Source: an uncultured Fidelibacterota bacterium (GTDB lineage: Bacteria; Fidelibacterota; Marinisomatia; Marinisomatales; Marinisomataceae). Taken from it: a stretch of 54,951 bases of DNA. Position numbers and translations under genes: made by a program. Shown here one piece after another: positions 3,051 through 10,964 of this stretch (the first letter of the stretch is position 1; every line of letters begins with the position of its first letter). Under the pieces are notes generated by a model. It made no database searches, was not told where the DNA came from, and saw only the letters and a program-made list of their open reading frames with translations. The stretch lies in NCBI GenBank assembly GCA_902578385.1, contig CACHCR010000007.1, positions 1-54,951 of the forward strand, in the 5' to 3' direction.

Positions 3051-4309
3051 TGGATTATTTTGAAATAAAGGAATCAAAAAAACTTTACGGCTCAGTTAAA
3101 GTTAGTGGAGCAAAAAATGCTGTGTTGCCTTTAATGGCTGCATCAATTCTTAATAAGAAAAAAATTAAAATTTTAAATGTTCCTACTTTATCTGACTCAA
3201 TAACTATGTCAAAACTTATTGAGGAGATGGGAGGCAATGTTCAATTTGACTCCGATGATTCTATAATAGTTGATTCATCAAAATTAAATAATCCATATGC
3301 ACCTTATGATTTAGTTAAGACTATGAGAGCATCATTTTATGTTCTTGGTCCATTATTAGCTAGGTTTAAAAAAGCTAAAGTATCTCTTCCGGGTGGTTGT
3401 GCCTGGGGTCCAAGACCTGTAGACTTTCATTTAAAAGGTTTAGAATCTCTTGGAGTAAAAATATCTATTGAAAATGGATATGTTGTAGCAAATGCTAGGC
3501 AATTAGTAGGCAATAAAATTCATTTTCCAAAGATTTCAGTTGGTGCTACAGGAAATGTAGTCATGGTTGCAATTCTAGCAGAAGGAACAACCACTATCAC
3601 AAATGCTGCCGCTGAACCCGAAATTCAACAACTTTGTAAAATGTTAAATGAAATGGGAGCTAAAATATCAGGCATTGGATCTAATACATTATTGATTAAG
3701 GGCGTAAAATCTTTAAAACCAATCAAAGAAGTATCTGTTATTCCAGATAGAATTGAAGCAGGCACATTTTTAATTGCTGCTGCAGCTGTTGGAGGTGAAG
3801 TTGAGATTAAAAATATAATTCCTGAACATTTAGAAAGTGTAACTAATTGTCTATTAAAGGCCAATATTGATATAAATGTTAGAGATAGCTCAATTACTAT
3901 AAAGTCAGATGGAAAAAATATATTATCAACAAATATTGAAACTAATGAATATCCTGGCTTTCCAACAGATTTACAAGCTCAGTGGATGATGCTAATGTGT
4001 TTGGCAGATGGAACATCAACAATTAAAGAGAATATTTATTATGATAGATTTACTCATATTATGGAATTAAATAGGCTGGGTTGTAATATCAAGCTTGAAG
4101 ATTCTGTTGCAATAATTGAGGGAAATAAAAATCTTATTGGAGCTGACGTTATGTCAACCGATATAAGGGCGTCTGCAGCATTAATTATTGCTGCTCTTTG
4201 TGCAAAAGGAGTAACAAATATTAGTAGAGTTTATCACATTGATAGAGGTTATGATAAAATTGAAAAAAAATTGACCAATATTGGTGCAAATATTATTAGA
4301 AAAAAATAA
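3050..4309 (+). CDS. murA: UDP-N-acetylglucosamine 1-carboxyvinyltransferase
   Basis: Catalyses the first committed step of peptidoglycan synthesis, adding enolpyruvate from PEP to UDP-GlcNAc. The 419-residue EPSP-synthase-fold enzyme has the substrate-binding SGAKNAVLPLMAA near the N-terminus and the catalytic loop PGGCAWGPRPVD, with Cys117 as the fosfomycin-target cysteine (not replaced by Asp). ATG 3050 shares its A with the acpS stop (TAATG), deciding the start over an upstream TTG at 3035. Length is normal for the family. Confidence 0.96.
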   Translation: MDYFEIKESKKLYGSVKVSGAKNAVLPLMAASILNKKKIKILNVPTLSDSITMSKLIEEMGGNVQFDSDDSIIVDSSKLNNPYAPYDLVKTMRASFYVLGPLLARFKKAKVSLPGGCAWGPRPVDFHLKGLESLGVKISIENGYVVANARQLVGNKIHFPKISVGATGNVVMVAILAEGTTTITNAAAEPEIQQLCKMLNEMGAKISGIGSNTLLIKGVKSLKPIKEVSVIPDRIEAGTFLIAAAAVGGEVEIKNIIPEHLESVTNCLLKANIDINVRDSSITIKSDGKNILSTNIETNEYPGFPTDLQAQWMMLMCLADGTSTIKENIYYDRFTHIMELNRLGCNIKLEDSVAIIEGNKNLIGADVMSTDIRASAALIIAALCAKGVTNISRVYHIDRGYDKIEKKLTNIGANIIRKK

Positions 4310-4359
4310 TCGAATTTATATTGTTTTTGAATTAATTATTTATAGATTTACCTCCAGAC

Positions 4360-5709
4360 ATGAAAATTGTTATTATAGGCGCTGGTGAAGTAGGGTTTCA
4401 CGTAGCAAAATCGCTTAGTGAGCTTGATTACGATATATCAGTAATAGATATTGATCATGCCAAATGTTCGAGAGCAAACGAACACTTAGATGTTATTGTA
4501 AATCAAGGTAACGGTTCTGACGAAAAACTTTTAAAAAATATTAATGTAGCAGATGCTGATTATGTATTTTGTTTAACAAATTCTGATGAAACAAATCTTA
4601 TTTCCTCATTACAGTGTCATAATCTTGGAGCAAAGAAAATAATAGCTCGATTAAGAGATTTAGATTATTCTAGAAATGGAAATGCCATTCCCCCAGAAAA
4701 ATTTGGGGTTGATATAGTAATTCATCCTGAAAAAGAGGTTGCAAAAGAGATAATTAGATTAGTTAAACATCCTTATGCAGATAAGTTTTATGAGTTTGAG
4801 GGTGGTAAAGCTGTTTTATTTTCAAAGAAAATTAACCACCGATCAAAGCTTGCAGGCATGACTGTGGAAGAATTCCATAAATCCAATGAAGATTTTAAAA
4901 GTTTAATTGTTGCAGTTATTAGAGGAGAAAAAATGACAATTCCTTCAACAACTTTTAAATTTGAACCAGAAGATTATGTTTTCTTTTTTGTTAAGTCAAA
5001 GAATCTAAATTCACTACTTGAAACGCTTGGCGTGAGAAATTCTGATTCCAAAAGAGTTATGATTGCTGGCGCAAGCAAAATTGGAAGGCTGGTCTCTTCA
5101 ATGCTCGAAGATGATATGTCCGTAAGATTGATTGAAAAGTCTAAAGAAAAGGCAACGGAAATTGCTAACCATCTAGACAAAACAATAGTTTTAAATTCAG
5201 ATGCAACAGATATTGAGTTTTTAAGAGGGGAGAATATTTCTGAAGCTGACTCATTTGTAGCAGTTACGGATGATCAACAATTAAATTTATTAGCTGGAAT
5301 ATTAGCTAAACAATTAAAAGTAAAACATTCAATTATACATGTAACTAACCCAGACTATGTCAGAAATATGTCTGATCTTGGAATTGGTTCCATTGTAAGT
5401 AAAAATAATGTTAGCGTGAATGCAGTGATTAAATCTATTAGAATCGACCAAAAAGAACATGTTATTCAACTCTTTAGTTCGTTGGATATGGAAGCAATAG
5501 AACTTGTAGCAGAAAAAGATTCAAAAGCTTCAAGATTACCTGTTTCTAATTTAAATCTTCCTCACGGATGTATTTTAGCACTGGTCAATCATAATGGTCA
5601 TATTAAAATTCCTTCTGGAGATTTTCAAATTACAGAAAATGATACAGTGTTGATTTTCTGTATTAATTCTAAAATAAGGGAAGTAAGTAAAATCTTTAAA
5701 TCTGAATAA
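4360..5709 (+). CDS. trkA: Trk potassium uptake protein TrkA (two RCK domains)
   Basis: Cytosolic NAD-binding regulator of the TrkH channel. At 449 residues it has two RCK-N/RCK-C repeats: a first Rossmann motif at the start (GAGEVGFHVAKSL) with an acidic NAD-ribose residue in VIDID, and a second at about residue 233 (AGASKIGRLVSSM). TrkA_C domains follow each (about 140-225 and 365-449). No clear Shine-Dalgarno is visible before ATG 4360. The trkH ATG overlaps the stop by one base, so the pair is coupled. Confidence 0.95.
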   Translation: MKIVIIGAGEVGFHVAKSLSELDYDISVIDIDHAKCSRANEHLDVIVNQGNGSDEKLLKNINVADADYVFCLTNSDETNLISSLQCHNLGAKKIIARLRDLDYSRNGNAIPPEKFGVDIVIHPEKEVAKEIIRLVKHPYADKFYEFEGGKAVLFSKKINHRSKLAGMTVEEFHKSNEDFKSLIVAVIRGEKMTIPSTTFKFEPEDYVFFFVKSKNLNSLLETLGVRNSDSKRVMIAGASKIGRLVSSMLEDDMSVRLIEKSKEKATEIANHLDKTIVLNSDATDIEFLRGENISEADSFVAVTDDQQLNLLAGILAKQLKVKHSIIHVTNPDYVRNMSDLGIGSIVSKNNVSVNAVIKSIRIDQKEHVIQLFSSLDMEAIELVAEKDSKASRLPVSNLNLPHGCILALVNHNGHIKIPSGDFQITENDTVLIFCINSKIREVSKIFKSE

Positions 5710-7133
5710 TGAGTCTTAGACCAACATTTAGACTTTTATCTATTTTGATTTCAGTGTTGTCTGTATTTCTTTTAATACCTGCAACTATAGAATATTTTGA
5801 TACTGCCAATATTTATCTTTACCGTATATCTATAATTTCAATTTTATGTGCAATACCTGTATGGTATTTATCAAGAAAAGCTAAATCTTTTTCAAATAAA
5901 GATGTTTTTTTGGTTATTGTTTTGTGTTGGATTTCAGCTGCAATTTTTGGTTCGATCCCATTTTATGTATCTGGAGCTTTTAATGGATATTCAAATGCAT
6001 TATTTGAAGCTGTGTCAGGAGTTACTACAACTGGTGCAACTATCTTGACTGACATCGAAAGTATGCCAAGGAGTATTTTATTATGGCGTTCATTCTTACA
6101 ATGGTTCGGTGGTCTTGGAATTGTTATTTTTACTATAGCATTATTACCGTTGCTTGGAGTATCTGGAGAAAAGATTTTTAATCTTGAATATCCGGGACCT
6201 TCTTCTGAGAAAATAACTCCCAGAATTAAAGATACGGCAAGATTATTGCTAAAATTTTATATTGGATTTACACTAGCACTATTTCTTTTATTGTCATACA
6301 GTATGTCTTTTTTTGACGCTATATGTCATGCAATGACAACAATGCCATCTGGAGGTTTTTCAACCTTTAATGATAGCATTAATGGACAAAGCGATTATGT
6401 AAAATCAGTCATCTTATTTTTTATGCTAGTTACTGGAACTAATTTTGCATTGCATTTTAGAGCAGTTAATCTAGGACTTAAATCTTATCAGAGGGATAGA
6501 GAGTTTCAATACTATATTTTTGCATGTTTATTATTCATGACTTTAATTTTTTCTTTTGGTTTTTTTAATGAAGACAAGACATCTCCTTTAGATGTTGCTT
6601 TTCAAACTGTTTCAATAATTACAACTACTGGTTATACTGCAACTGATTATAGTAGCTGGACACCTTTTATTTCGCAATATTTACTATATATTTTGATGTT
6701 TACAGGCGCAATGGGTGGTTCAACTAGTGGAGGTATTAAAATTATAAGAATCGTTGCTTTGTATAAATATGTTAGAGTTGAACTAAAAAGAGCTTTACAT
6801 GAGAAAGCAATTATTCCTGTCAGAATAGGAAAAAAAGTTTTATCAGATGAGTTAATAAGAAAAACGTTAGCATTTTTCTTGTTTTATGTTTTATTCTTCT
6901 TTTTAGCATCTGTTATCTTTGTAATGTTAGGAGATAATTTGGAGTCTTCAATTGGAGCATCTGCTTCAGCTATGGGTAATATTGGTCCATCTATTGGGGA
7001 GTATGGAGCTATGAATAATTATAATAGCATGCACGTACTTGGTAAGTATCTGATGATGTTTGGAATGATTTTAGGAAGATTAGAAATTTTTGCGGTATTA
7101 GTTCTATTTACTAGAACATTTTGGAGATCATAA
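5709..7133 (+). CDS. trkH: Trk potassium uptake channel TrkH
   Basis: Inner-membrane K+ translocating subunit, 474 residues, with multiple M1-P-M2 units. Pore-loop selectivity-filter-like segments are visible: VSGVTTTGATI near residue 100, TTMPSGGFSTF near 215, IITTTGYTATDY near 305 and ASAMGNIGPS near 425. The conserved Gly of each filter is kept. It follows trkA with a one-base overlap. The end of this gene (GGAGATC around 7123) doubles as a Shine-Dalgarno for uvrC. Confidence 0.95.
   Translation: MSLRPTFRLLSILISVLSVFLLIPATIEYFDTANIYLYRISIISILCAIPVWYLSRKAKSFSNKDVFLVIVLCWISAAIFGSIPFYVSGAFNGYSNALFEAVSGVTTTGATILTDIESMPRSILLWRSFLQWFGGLGIVIFTIALLPLLGVSGEKIFNLEYPGPSSEKITPRIKDTARLLLKFYIGFTLALFLLLSYSMSFFDAICHAMTTMPSGGFSTFNDSINGQSDYVKSVILFFMLVTGTNFALHFRAVNLGLKSYQRDREFQYYIFACLLFMTLIFSFGFFNEDKTSPLDVAFQTVSIITTTGYTATDYSSWTPFISQYLLYILMFTGAMGGSTSGGIKIIRIVALYKYVRVELKRALHEKAIIPVRIGKKVLSDELIRKTLAFFLFYVLFFFLASVIFVMLGDNLESSIGASASAMGNIGPSIGEYGAMNNYNSMHVLGKYLMMFGMILGRLEIFAVLVLFTRTFWRS
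7123..7129 (+). promoter_or_regulatory. Shine-Dalgarno sequence that decides the uvrC start
   Basis: GGAGATC, inside the trkH 3' end, ends six bases (eight from the GGAG core) before ATT 7135. It matches the anti-SD of 16S rRNA and is well placed for initiation at ATT. No ATG, GTG or TTG exists in this frame between the upstream stop at 7099 and the uvrC catalytic domain. Confidence 0.55.
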
Positions 7134-7134
7134 T

Positions 7135-8913
7135 ATTAGCATACAGTCCAAAATTTTAGGCCTTCCAAAGCAGCCCGGCATTTATCAATTTAAAGATAAA
7201 AATGGCAAAATTATCTACATTGGTAAGGCAAAAAATCTTAAAAATAGGGTAAAGTCCTATTTTCAAAAAAAATCATATAGAACACCAAAAGAACAATCTT
7301 TATTGAAAAGAATTGAGGATTTCGAGTGGATTGTTTGTCAAGATGAAGCTGATGCCTTTATTACTGAAGCAACTTTAATTAAAAAGTTTAAACCTAGGTA
7401 TAATGTTCAATTGAAAGATGATAAGTCATTTCCATACCTAAAAATAACCAATGAACAGTTTCCTAAGGTTTTTATAACAAGAAAAATATTTAATGATAAA
7501 TCAAAATACTTTGGACCGTACACGGATGTGAAATCGATGAGAAGATTGGTAGATGTATTGTATAAGGCATTCCCCATAAGAAATTGTTACATAGAATTGA
7601 ATGAGATTGATGAGAAAACAAAGCAACCTTTGGTTTTAAAAAACGGGCTAGGCATTAGAACAATTACTGAAGATGAGTATAAAGATATGGTTGCTGATAT
7701 GATTTCGTTTTTAAAAGGAGAAACCAAGTTTGTTGAAAAGAAACTTTCAAAACAAATGGATTATTTTACTTCAAAAATGATGTATGAAGATTCTGCAAGA
7801 GTAAGAGATCAAATAAAGGCAATAAATTTATTTAAAGTTGGTCAAAGAAAATTAGAGGCTGACTTCTCAAATAGAGATGTGATTGGTTATCAGAATAAAG
7901 ATAAACACTTTGTGGTGGTCATTTTACGAATAAGAGAAGGACGAATTCTTAGTAGAGAAAAGATTTCTTTAGATTCTGATGAATCATTAGATAATATTTT
8001 AAGATCTATTGTAATTAATTTTTATATGAACGCAGCTTATATCCCTAATAAGATTTATTTTCCTGAACTTCCTGAAGAATCCAAAGAACTTGAATCATGG
8101 TTATCAGAAAAAGCTGGAAGAAAGGTAGTATTTCATGTTCCTCAAAGAGCAGTAAAGTTGCAAGAATTAAAACTTGCTAATAGAAATGCAAAATTATTAT
8201 TGAATGAATGGTTGTTAAATATTGAAAAGCGCAAAGATTACATTCCAAAATTATTAAATGAATTAAAAGATATTTTAAATCTTAATAAACCACCAAGACT
8301 GATTGAAGCGTTTGATATATCTCATTTAGGAGGAACGGATACTGTGGCATCTATGGTAGTATTTAAAGACGGAAGACCGTTTAAAAGTGCCTATAGAAAA
8401 TATAATATTAATGTTGATAAAGTAGATGATTTTGAATCAATGAGAGAGGTAGTACTTAGACGATACAAACGTCAATTAAAAGAAAAAAATACGTTACCTG
8501 ATCTTGTATTGATTGATGGTGGAAAAGGGCAATTATCTGCTGCTTTAGAATCACTCAAAGAATTAAAACTTGATTTGCCAATAGTAGCACTTGCTAAACG
8601 TTTGGAAGAGTTATTTCTTCCATCACAAAAAGATTCTCTGCGCATTGCTAAAAATTCACCTGCCTTAAATATTTTAAAACAGTTAAGAGATGAAGCACAT
8701 AGGTTTGCAATCACATTTCAAAGACAAAAAAGAACTAAAGGTATTGCTAAATCAAAATTTGAAGATATTCCTGGAGTTGGAAAGAAAACCGTTGAAAAAA
8801 TATATAAAAGATTTCAAAATACAAGCGATATGAAAGATTTATCAGATAAAGCATTAGCTTATAAGCTTGGTGTTAGTCAAAAGATTGCAAAAGAAATTAA
8901 AAAGAATATTTGA
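7135..8913 (+). CDS. uvrC: Excinuclease ABC subunit C, apparent ATT start
   Basis: Makes both incisions in nucleotide excision repair with UvrAB. Read from ATT 7135, the protein is 592 residues with all UvrC parts: GIY-YIG domain at the extreme N-terminus (PGIYQFKDKNG...IYIGKAKNL), a UVR motif around residue 210, the RNase H-like 3'... 5' nuclease domain (FDISHLGGTDTVASMVVF and LVLIDGGKGQL), and a C-terminal helix-hairpin-helix pair (IPGVGKKT...). The first canonical start codon in frame, TTG 7303, would delete most of the GIY-YIG domain, so it is rejected. The upstream stop is at 7099. ATT or ATA initiation, or a sequence error at the start, are the options. Confidence 0.88.
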   Translation: MSIQSKILGLPKQPGIYQFKDKNGKIIYIGKAKNLKNRVKSYFQKKSYRTPKEQSLLKRIEDFEWIVCQDEADAFITEATLIKKFKPRYNVQLKDDKSFPYLKITNEQFPKVFITRKIFNDKSKYFGPYTDVKSMRRLVDVLYKAFPIRNCYIELNEIDEKTKQPLVLKNGLGIRTITEDEYKDMVADMISFLKGETKFVEKKLSKQMDYFTSKMMYEDSARVRDQIKAINLFKVGQRKLEADFSNRDVIGYQNKDKHFVVVILRIREGRILSREKISLDSDESLDNILRSIVINFYMNAAYIPNKIYFPELPEESKELESWLSEKAGRKVVFHVPQRAVKLQELKLANRNAKLLLNEWLLNIEKRKDYIPKLLNELKDILNLNKPPRLIEAFDISHLGGTDTVASMVVFKDGRPFKSAYRKYNINVDKVDDFESMREVVLRRYKRQLKEKNTLPDLVLIDGGKGQLSAALESLKELKLDLPIVALAKRLEELFLPSQKDSLRIAKNSPALNILKQLRDEAHRFAITFQRQKRTKGIAKSKFEDIPGVGKKTVEKIYKRFQNTSDMKDLSDKALAYKLGVSQKIAKEIKKNI

Positions 8914-8923
8914 GATTAAATTA

Positions 8924-10015
8924 ATGGACAAAAAAGTTGCATCTCAAGGTTATTGGCAAGATAAAAATAATAGAATTTCCCATTTAAAAAAATTTGAAAG
9001 AAAAAACAAAATTTTTTCTCCTGAAGATTGGTATAGAGTAAGAATTAAAGATCTTTATAATTACAATATTTCTCAAGGATATGGAAGAACGGCTCTTGTA
9101 TTACAATACTTTGGCGGAAGTATTTACAATATAGCTCATTTTTTATACCCTACATTTAATTTTGATTTGTGGAAATTTTCAAGAGCACCTTCAAATTTTA
9201 GCTATAAAAATGATGATGATGTTAGAACAATGATTGAGAAAACTTTGAAAGACTTAAATCTCATATTTCCTCAAGGTGTGTATCAATTAAGTATGAGAAA
9301 ACATTTTGGTAATACTCGTTTTAGTAAAGAGCGTAAAGGAGGCCTATATAATATTGTAAAAAAATTATACCCTAAAAATGATTGGTATCCGTGGCTCTTT
9401 GTTGGAGGAGTAGGTAATAAATTTTGGCAGAATAAAAAAAATATAAAAAGATATGTAGAATGGCTTTCAATTCAGCTTCAAATAAGTTCATTAGATGAAT
9501 GGTATGATATTAATAATGAAATTATTAATTATTATAAAGGATCAGGTTTATTAGTCCACGGCTTAGACAAAGGAGTTACAATCTATGACATTGTTATGAT
9601 TGCATATCCCAAATATCGATGGGATAGAACTCAGTTTGATAAAAAAAAATATACATCACAAAAAAGATTATATAACATTTTGAAAAAAATCTTTCCTAAT
9701 GAAGAAATTTTATACAACAAAAGAAACCATGATATAGTAAATCCAAAAACAAATTATCCATTAGAATTAGATTGTTTCATCCCTCGATTAAAATTGGCTT
9801 TTGAATATCAAGGGATTCAGCATAAAAAAAGAGATAAAAGATTTTTTCATTCAAAAAAATCAAGAGATAAATATAAAGACTTGTTATTTAGAGATAACTT
9901 TAAAAAGAAAAGGTGTAAAGATTTAGAGATTCATTTGATTGAGGTTTTTGCTGAAGAATGGGACTATACCGAAAAAGGTCTCAGAAATATTATTAATGAA
10001 GTGTCAATTATATAA
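8924..10015 (+). CDS. Three-repeat aromatic-rich protein with C-terminal PD-(D/E)XK/VSR-like nuclease domain
   Basis: Not a family I can name. The 363-residue protein has three imperfect repeats of about 75-85 residues (about 8-85, 95-160, 166-240). They share a tryptophan start, a DWY/EWY block, a Gly-Leu block, SIYNI/GLYNI/TIYDI, then YP...W...F. The C-terminal 110 residues resemble the restriction-fold domain seen in phage and giant-virus proteins: LELDCFIP, then FEYQGIQH, then RDNFKKKRC and IHLIEVF. Asp and Glu/Gln residues there are candidate metal ligands. It starts 10 bases after uvrC and lacks a signal peptide, so a DNA-related cytosolic role is inferred. Its 3' end overlaps cbs on the other strand by eight bases. 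Confidence 0.7.
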
Positions 10016-10964
10016 GATCATTTTCTTTCATCCAATCGTCTGAAAGAAACTTTCTCATATAATTTCTGATACTATCAGGTAGTATTACTAAGCAATTTTG
10101 CCCTTTTTTGAGCGATTTTGCTGCTTTTAAGGCTGCAAACATGGCTGAGCCACATGAACCTCCAATTAATAGTCCTTCTTGACGAATAAGAGCTCTTGCA
10201 GTATTGAATGCTTCTTTGTCATTAACTTTGACAAAATCATCTATATAATCATGGTCACAAGTTTTCGGTATAAAATCATAACCAATTCCTTCAACTTTAT
10301 ACGGCTGTCCTTTATATTCATCTTCGCCGCCAAGAATTGAGCCATAAGGATCAGCTCCAATGATTTTTATATCTGCAATTTCTTCTTTTAATCTTTTTCC
10401 AACTCCAGTAGCAGTTCCTCCAGTCCCAACACCCATAACCACCATATGTAAATCAGTTCCGAAGTCATTTAGAATCTCTTGAGCAGTGTCATGGTAATGT
10501 GCGTCAGGATTACAACAATTAGTCCACTGATCTAAAATGTGACTATTTGAAATCTCTTCATTTAATTTTTTTGCAACTCCAAAATTACTTTTTGGATCAT
10601 CATGAGCTGCTTCAGTAGGGGTGCGCACTATTTTTGCACCTAAGGCATTGATAGTCAGTTCTTTTTCCATACTCATTTTTTCAGGCATACAAATAATCAA
10701 TTTATATCCTCTAACTGCTGCTGCTAAAGCAAGTCCAATTCCAGTATTACCAGATGTTGCTTCAATTAGTGTATCTCCTGGCTTAATACGACCTTCTTTT
10801 TCAGCATGATCAATCATTCTAAAGGCAGTTCTGTCTTTTACAGATCCTCCAGGATTAACCATTTCTATTTTTGCGTAAAGATTGCATTCAAGGTGTTTGC
10901 CAATAGAATTTAATTTTACGACTGGAGTAGATCCGATTGTTTCAAGAATGTCATTATATATCAT
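10008..10964 (-). CDS. Cystathionine beta-synthase, catalytic core only
   Basis: PLP-dependent fold-type II enzyme, 318 residues. The PLP Lys43 lies in NPGGSVKDR, the phosphate loop is [10 protein letters not shown] and the Ser/homocysteine loop TSGNTG. Several segments are more like eukaryotic/bacterial cystathionine beta-synthase than O-acetylserine sulfhydrylase: [22 protein letters not shown] and [18 protein letters not shown]. It lacks the N-terminal haem region and the C-terminal CBS-domain pair, so no SAM regulation is expected. A cysteine synthase activity cannot be excluded. No cystathionine lyase gene is adjacent. Confidence 0.85.

Follow-up and report, generated by a model that had tools for sequence, protein, structure and literature searches.

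A conserved AUU, AUA or AUC codon as the probable weak start of uvrC in a genus of marine Marinimicrobia

In the DNA analysed here, uvrC follows almost directly on trkH and lacks a canonical start codon at the place where its protein is expected to begin. The question that this locus raises is from which codon the gene is translated, and what such a codon would mean for the amount of UvrC in the cell. The window, by which we mean the whole stretch of 54,951 nucleotides, belongs to the draft genome of an uncultured bacterium from an open-ocean genus (946 kb, 14 contigs, completeness 75.67), most of whose nearest relatives are recorded as Candidatus Marinimicrobia or Neomarinimicrobiota.

The trkH-uvrC junction and its relatives

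The features of the junction in the window are as follows.

5709 to 7133, plus strand: trkH, the upstream gene (Pfam TrkH, E 6.2e-65), whose last codons, Trp-Arg-Ser-stop, contain the Shine-Dalgarno (SD) motif of uvrC
7123 to 7126, plus strand: GGAG SD motif, 8 nt before the ATT and shared by all 23 genomes of the genus in which the start could be read
7131 to 7133, plus strand: TAA stop codon of trkH, one nucleotide ahead of the uvrC start
7135 to 7137, plus strand: ATT, putative start codon of uvrC, from which coding constraint begins
7135 to 8913, plus strand: uvrC, 592 codons and TGA, with Pfam matches to GIY-YIG and to two UvrC RNase H models
7174 to 7404, plus strand: GIY-YIG catalytic domain, residues 14 to 90 (Pfam PF01541, E 2.6e-11)
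7303 to 7305, plus strand: TTG, the first canonical start codon in the uvrC frame, codon 57 counted from the ATT at 7135
8269 to 8712, plus strand: UvrC RNase H endonuclease domain, residues 379 to 526 (Pfam)

The identity of the gene as uvrC is given by the presence of both the GIY-YIG and the RNase H endonuclease domains. Its frame is closed by a TAG at 7099 to 7101 and open from 7102, and between that stop and the TTG at 7303 neither the sequence nor its translation holds an ATG, GTG or TTG in frame, while the PGIY motif begins at 7174. Two claims of the sequence-only reading are thereby borne out, namely that uvrC has no canonical start before the GIY-YIG motif and that the ATT at 7135 stands eight bases after a GGAG in the 3' end of trkH. 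The TTG falls inside the GIY-YIG domain; a mechanical list of open reading frames, which began uvrC at this codon, gave a protein of 536 aa in which more than half of the domain was lost. No Rfam element was found at the gathering threshold around the junction (positions 4000 to 10100). The open reading frame directly 3' of uvrC (8924 to 10015, plus strand) encodes 363 aa and has no Pfam match at 0.001.

Twenty-four genomes of the genus were searched, the window's own included, and the uvrC start could be read in 23 (G004 gave no match); for G011, G012 and G014 it was taken from the records L065, L053 and L052, paired by coordinates. The start column holds ATT in 13 genomes, ATA in eight and ATC in two, and ATG in none of the 23. 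The GGAG lies 8 nt from this codon in 19 genomes, 9 nt in two and 6 nt in two. An AUU, AUA or AUC codon (AUH) with GGAG 6 to 9 nt upstream in 23 of 23 genomes is more than chance. In 14 of the 23, the interval running from the in-frame stop upstream to codon 15 is free of canonical codons, and the other nine have only TTG or GTG, situated at least 12 codons upstream or at codons 8 to 13. Outside the genus, 37 genomes representing other families of the order were searched and nine loci were read, seven with ATG exactly in the start column and two with ATG two to three codons before it; more distant uvrC loci (Ignavibacteria, Chlorobi, Bacteroidetes) have an in-frame ATG further upstream in ten of ten cases. 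The comparison of relatives that the sequence-only reading had proposed as its check thus places ATG at the same position in other families only.

In 19 genomes the uvrC codon lies at +1 nt from the trkH stop; G001 and G017 have it at +2, G003 and G009 at -1. A tblastn search with TrkH against the 19 loci outside the genus (nine from the order, ten more distant) returned one match, in L027, where the end of TrkH lies some 1.4 kb ahead of uvrC; the search could miss a diverged TrkH, and L028 offers only 34 nt of upstream sequence. Since this single distant match was all that the outside loci gave, the junction looks particular to the genus. The history of the codon was followed on a quick 27-row tree of UvrC and Ddl (stars on 11 of its 24 inner branches). 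There the start column changes at least twice inside the genus, and three times when three outgroups with ATG are included. Its two steps compare with 1 to 6 (median 5) in 17 invariant isoleucine columns of UvrC, three of which have two steps or fewer, so that the column is not clearly slower. As AUU, AUA and AUC are also the three isoleucine codons, the column taken by itself could reflect either a weak start or an internal isoleucine.

Two further observations concern uvrC itself. The genome G015 contains two copies (L010 on contig C8 and L050 on contig C1), of which the C1 copy is broken; both have ATT at the start column, and the bin is perhaps mixed. In six of nine genus members checked, UvrC ends after 533 codons (L018 to L023, from G005, G023, G017, G001, G020 and G021 respectively). 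These six proteins are devoid of the C-terminal stretch that holds residues 543 to 589 of P0001, a match to HhH_5 below the Pfam cut-off, and the DNA after their stop codons bears, by eye, no resemblance to the missing stretch.

The onset of coding constraint and other genes with AUH starts

The distinction between a start codon and an internal isoleucine was provided by the pattern of substitutions on either side of the ATT. Synonymous and nonsynonymous changes were counted in nine non-overlapping pairs of close relatives, chosen by hand and covering 18 of the 23 genomes, in all of which uvrC stands in one and the same frame relation to trkH. In the uvrC frame, the ratio was 2:10 over the 11 codons that precede the ATT, but 23.5:4.5 over codons 2 to 15 and 66:13 over codons 16 to 44; the last ten trkH codons gave 8:0 in their own frame. 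The difference between 2:10 and 24:4 (rounded counts) corresponds to a Fisher p of about 6e-5. Because the ratio shifts in this manner from upstream codons to codons 2 to 15, protein constraint in the uvrC frame starts at the ATT and there is none before it. The coding-boundary test does separate a start from an internal isoleucine, whereas the rate of the column does not.

The initiation machinery was considered in parallel. IF3_N was matched in 17 of the 24 genomes, the window's included, and not in the other seven, among them G002 (97% complete) and G015 (94%). We presume that these missing matches reflect gaps in drafts; a real loss in G002 and G015 would bear on the use of AUH starts. In the window's genome, IF3 can be aligned to a solved IF3 over residues 6 to 169 of 169 (E 2.9e-47). 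The G018 stretches contain three CAU tRNAs, one of which looks like an initiator by eye, with 1:72 unpaired and GGG/CCC in the anticodon stem, and the 16S end in G019 is GGATCACCTCC, with a normal anti-SD. Where they were found, the initiator tRNA, the anti-SD and IF3 seem unremarkable, and, apart from the seven genomes with no IF3_N match, these components give no sign of an altered decoding apparatus or a changed code.

Other genes of this kind were sought in a survey of 780 open reading frames over about 968 kb of G018, compared with stretches of G019 (794 kb) and G023 (about 340 kb) and with the window, and covering genes of at least 60 codons with a homologue in the compared stretches. 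A first pass over 400 kb with a loose cut-off had flagged 87 of 362 frames, of which 23 were inspected. The full pass flagged 22 of the 780, and three were kept by eye as having a conserved N-terminus with no canonical start: infC, uvrC and ddl. The other 19 were dropped by eye, as a canonical start followed or as they looked antisense, rRNA, tRNA-adjacent or masked. A separate screen sought AUH codons that have both an SD and a canonical codon close by; its 65 rows were judged by eye, and beyond the same three genes only one stood out, which from its sequence we take to be a CIA30-like gene (G018:C1, about 274391 to 274958, minus strand, in L109), with ATC after AAGGAG. It was rejected as a fourth case, as its start is not conserved: GTG occupies the same column in G019, ATG is found in G004 and G006, and other N-termini occur elsewhere. 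A further gene of G018 (C1, 305058 onward, in L111), presumably lgt-like, has just before its ATG a leader that is nearly identical in G018, G019 and G023. The leader reads GGTTACAAAGTATTTTTTGTATC in two of these genomes, with one base different in the third, and is perhaps a promoter or a regulatory leader.

The ddl gene, identified by its Pfam Dala_Dala_lig match, has ATT in 16, ATC in six and ATG in two of the 24 genomes at its start column. An SD (AAAGGA, AAGGA, AAGGG or GGAGG) precedes all 22 AUH versions and neither of the ATG versions; the latter belong to the sister genomes G008 and G022 and overlap the upstream gene by 4 nt. This exchange, in one column, of AUH with an SD for ATG with none is the best internal evidence suggesting that AUH codons serve as starts in the genus. 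For infC, the start is ATT in 15 and ATC in one of 16 genus loci read, and ATC in 13 and ATA in one of 14 order loci; in the window's genome the ATT stands 8 nt after GGAG, the spacing seen in uvrC. No canonical codon precedes the infC ATT or ATC in the stretch printed for 11 of the 16 genus loci. In the other five (G000, G001, G003, G011 and G017, the window's genome among them), the SD coincides with or is preceded by an in-frame ATG or TTG, and the infC start there consequently rests on homology and on the known infC.

The three genes share their setting. Relative to the end of the upstream gene, uvrC begins at -1 to +2 nt, infC at -5 or -8 and the AUH versions of ddl at -10 or -16, and all three combine a close upstream stop with an SD. 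Among 623 genes of G018 with assigned canonical starts, 281 lie at -20 to +3 nt from the upstream stop; an SD of comparable kind is found in 132, and 63 combine the two features. SD use looks like a minority habit in this genome: 95 of its 645 assigned ATG starts are preceded by GGAG or GAGG, compared with 24 of 644 in the control interval.

A proposed mechanism and the alternatives

We consider it likely that uvrC of this genus is translated from a weak AUU, AUA or AUC start, with few UvrC made per transcript and with a link to free IF3. The sequence basis of this reading, which indicates that the codon acts as a start, consists of the AUH column with its conservation throughout the genus, the SD, the point at which coding constraint sets in, and the fact that no better start is available. 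We propose that ribosomes finishing trkH, or entering at the GGAG in its last codons, would set the AUU in the P site, the nearby termination of trkH helping them to reach the uvrC start. The initiator tRNA would pair properly with the first two bases of AUU only, leaving a mismatch at the third, of the kind that IF3 disfavours; initiation on uvrC would then be slow and should drop when IF3 is abundant. The outcome would be few UvrC molecules per trkH-uvrC transcript and a UvrC level tied to free IF3. We infer the lower yield and the IF3 sensitivity from the literature on IF3 and weak starts in other bacteria, namely E. coli, Streptomyces and S. aureus. The co-transcription of trkH and uvrC and a benefit of scarce UvrC are likewise deduced, and the usefulness of a low level, for a nuclease of which few copies would be needed, is our guess. 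AUU initiation of uvrC, as suggested by the sequence-only reading, is supported by the coding boundary, by the conserved SD and by ddl, which mostly has AUU or AUC with an SD but ATG in the same column of two genomes; the earlier account of the mechanism is most likely correct, its regulatory part being a prediction.

The principal alternative, which we regard as possible if doubtful, accepts the AUH start as real and denies it a regulatory role: behind trkH, reinitiation and the SD would have made the codon nearly irrelevant, and a weak codon would have drifted in and stayed. Coupling to trkH might indeed make the start efficient enough for the weak codon to matter little, each of the three AUH genes begins where an upstream gene ends or within its last codons, and a junction with trkH is scarcely met at the 19 loci searched outside the genus, where the one TrkH match lies far from uvrC. 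Nevertheless, a single third-base change would give AUG, yet none of the 23 genomes has it despite the repeated changes of the column, and ATG is reachable, as the two ATG versions of ddl demonstrate. Tight coupling alone does not bring AUH either, as the 281 closely placed genes of G018 have canonical starts.

The remaining alternatives deny that the ATT is the start at all, or that it exists. Programmed frameshifting could yield a TrkH-UvrC fusion with the isoleucine codon internal, as the two genes overlap or nearly abut, no canonical start is well placed, and GGAG occurs just ahead of the trkH stop. This is very unlikely on account of the frame relation, which takes two forms (+1 in 19 genomes; +2 in two and -1 in two) such that the shift would have had to change, and of the substitution pattern, the codons upstream of the ATT being free of protein constraint in the uvrC frame. 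The argument from frame relation does not extend to ddl and infC, for which the relation to the upstream gene is constant; for ddl, the frameshift reading is countered by the ATG in the same column of the two sisters. It is equally hard to credit that translation begins only at an internal canonical codon, the TTG at 7303 being the first, or that uvrC is a pseudogene. Codons 2 to 56 hold more than half of the GIY-YIG domain and are under purifying selection, with synonymous to nonsynonymous changes of 16:0 against G018 and 20.5:5.5 against G019, and TTG is absent at that place in several relatives (e.g. G005, G008, G013, G020 and G021). Finally, a sequencing or assembly error might be suspected in a draft genome, but it is ruled out by the same codon class in 22 other genomes, which derive from different isolates, single-cell or metagenomic, according to record titles covering most of them.

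Relation to known weak starts and significance

The bacterium E. coli belongs to a different phylum than this lineage, and its chromosomal gene pcnB is reportedly limited by an AUU start, going by the title of a report by Binns and Masters of 2002. By that title, uvrC resembles pcnB as a chromosomal gene with an AUU start, the difference being that it is another gene. The infC gene of E. coli, which encodes IF3, starts with AUU (PMC5472188), as does uvrC here, and the infC of the window's genome shares with uvrC the arrangement of GGAG, 8 nt and ATT. The two differ in that repression of infC amounts to autoregulation, whereas uvrC would be a target only. In Streptomyces, the GTC start of sigR was found by experiment to be repressed by IF3, and across 34 species it is GTC in 32 and GTT in two, with a conserved SD (PMC5472188). 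Both sigR and uvrC thus keep a non-canonical start within a genus together with a conserved SD, but sigR has GUC or GUU rather than AUH, encodes a sigma factor and was demonstrated experimentally, while uvrC is known from its sequence.

Conserved starts with a strong SD, AUU in cvfC1 and AUA in ccpN, were detected by profiling in S. aureus, and reporters with AUU or AUA starts reached about 10% of AUG in poor medium and, for ccpN, as much as 30% in rich medium (PMC13009471). The combination of a conserved AUU or AUA start with a strong SD is common to these genes and to uvrC; in the Firmicute, one encodes a small protein and the other a regulator, whereas a DNA-repair nuclease and a cell-wall ligase are concerned here, in a lineage with minority SD use. 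In experiments in vitro, a rising IF3 level works against weak third-base pairs, including AUU with the anticodon CAU (PMC10158994). Overproduced IF3 lowers re-initiation in E. coli when no SD is present (PMC2268962), a result that applies only loosely because uvrC has an SD. Few bacterial genes with AUU, AUA or AUC starts are named in the literature consulted (infC, pcnB, cvfC1, ccpN and citZ), and a search of one library, judged by titles and the beginnings of abstracts, returned no description of an AUH start in uvrC, in ddl or in Marinimicrobia.

The best reading is that uvrC represents an additional, genus-wide case in the known class of weak start codons discriminated by IF3, and its conservation through the genus together with the company of ddl would raise it above a curiosity. 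It can further be imagined, although we think it unlikely, that infC, uvrC and ddl form a small IF3-gated regulon under AUU, AUC and AUA control in this marine genus. Excision repair and the supply of D-Ala-D-Ala would then move together with the ratio of ribosomes to IF3, and a streamlined genome would possess a sensor of growth state made of start codons alone. For annotation, a gene caller limited to ATG, GTG and TTG would truncate UvrC in these bacteria, and its GIY-YIG nuclease domain would look broken. With an AUH start in a housekeeping DNA-repair gene, in all 23 readable genomes, and in 22 of the 24 versions of ddl, the class would reach into an uncultured ocean phylum, and such starts would prove to be detectable by comparison alone. 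In this genus, the weak AUU, AUA or AUC start probably keeps UvrC scarce and tied to the state of the translation machinery.
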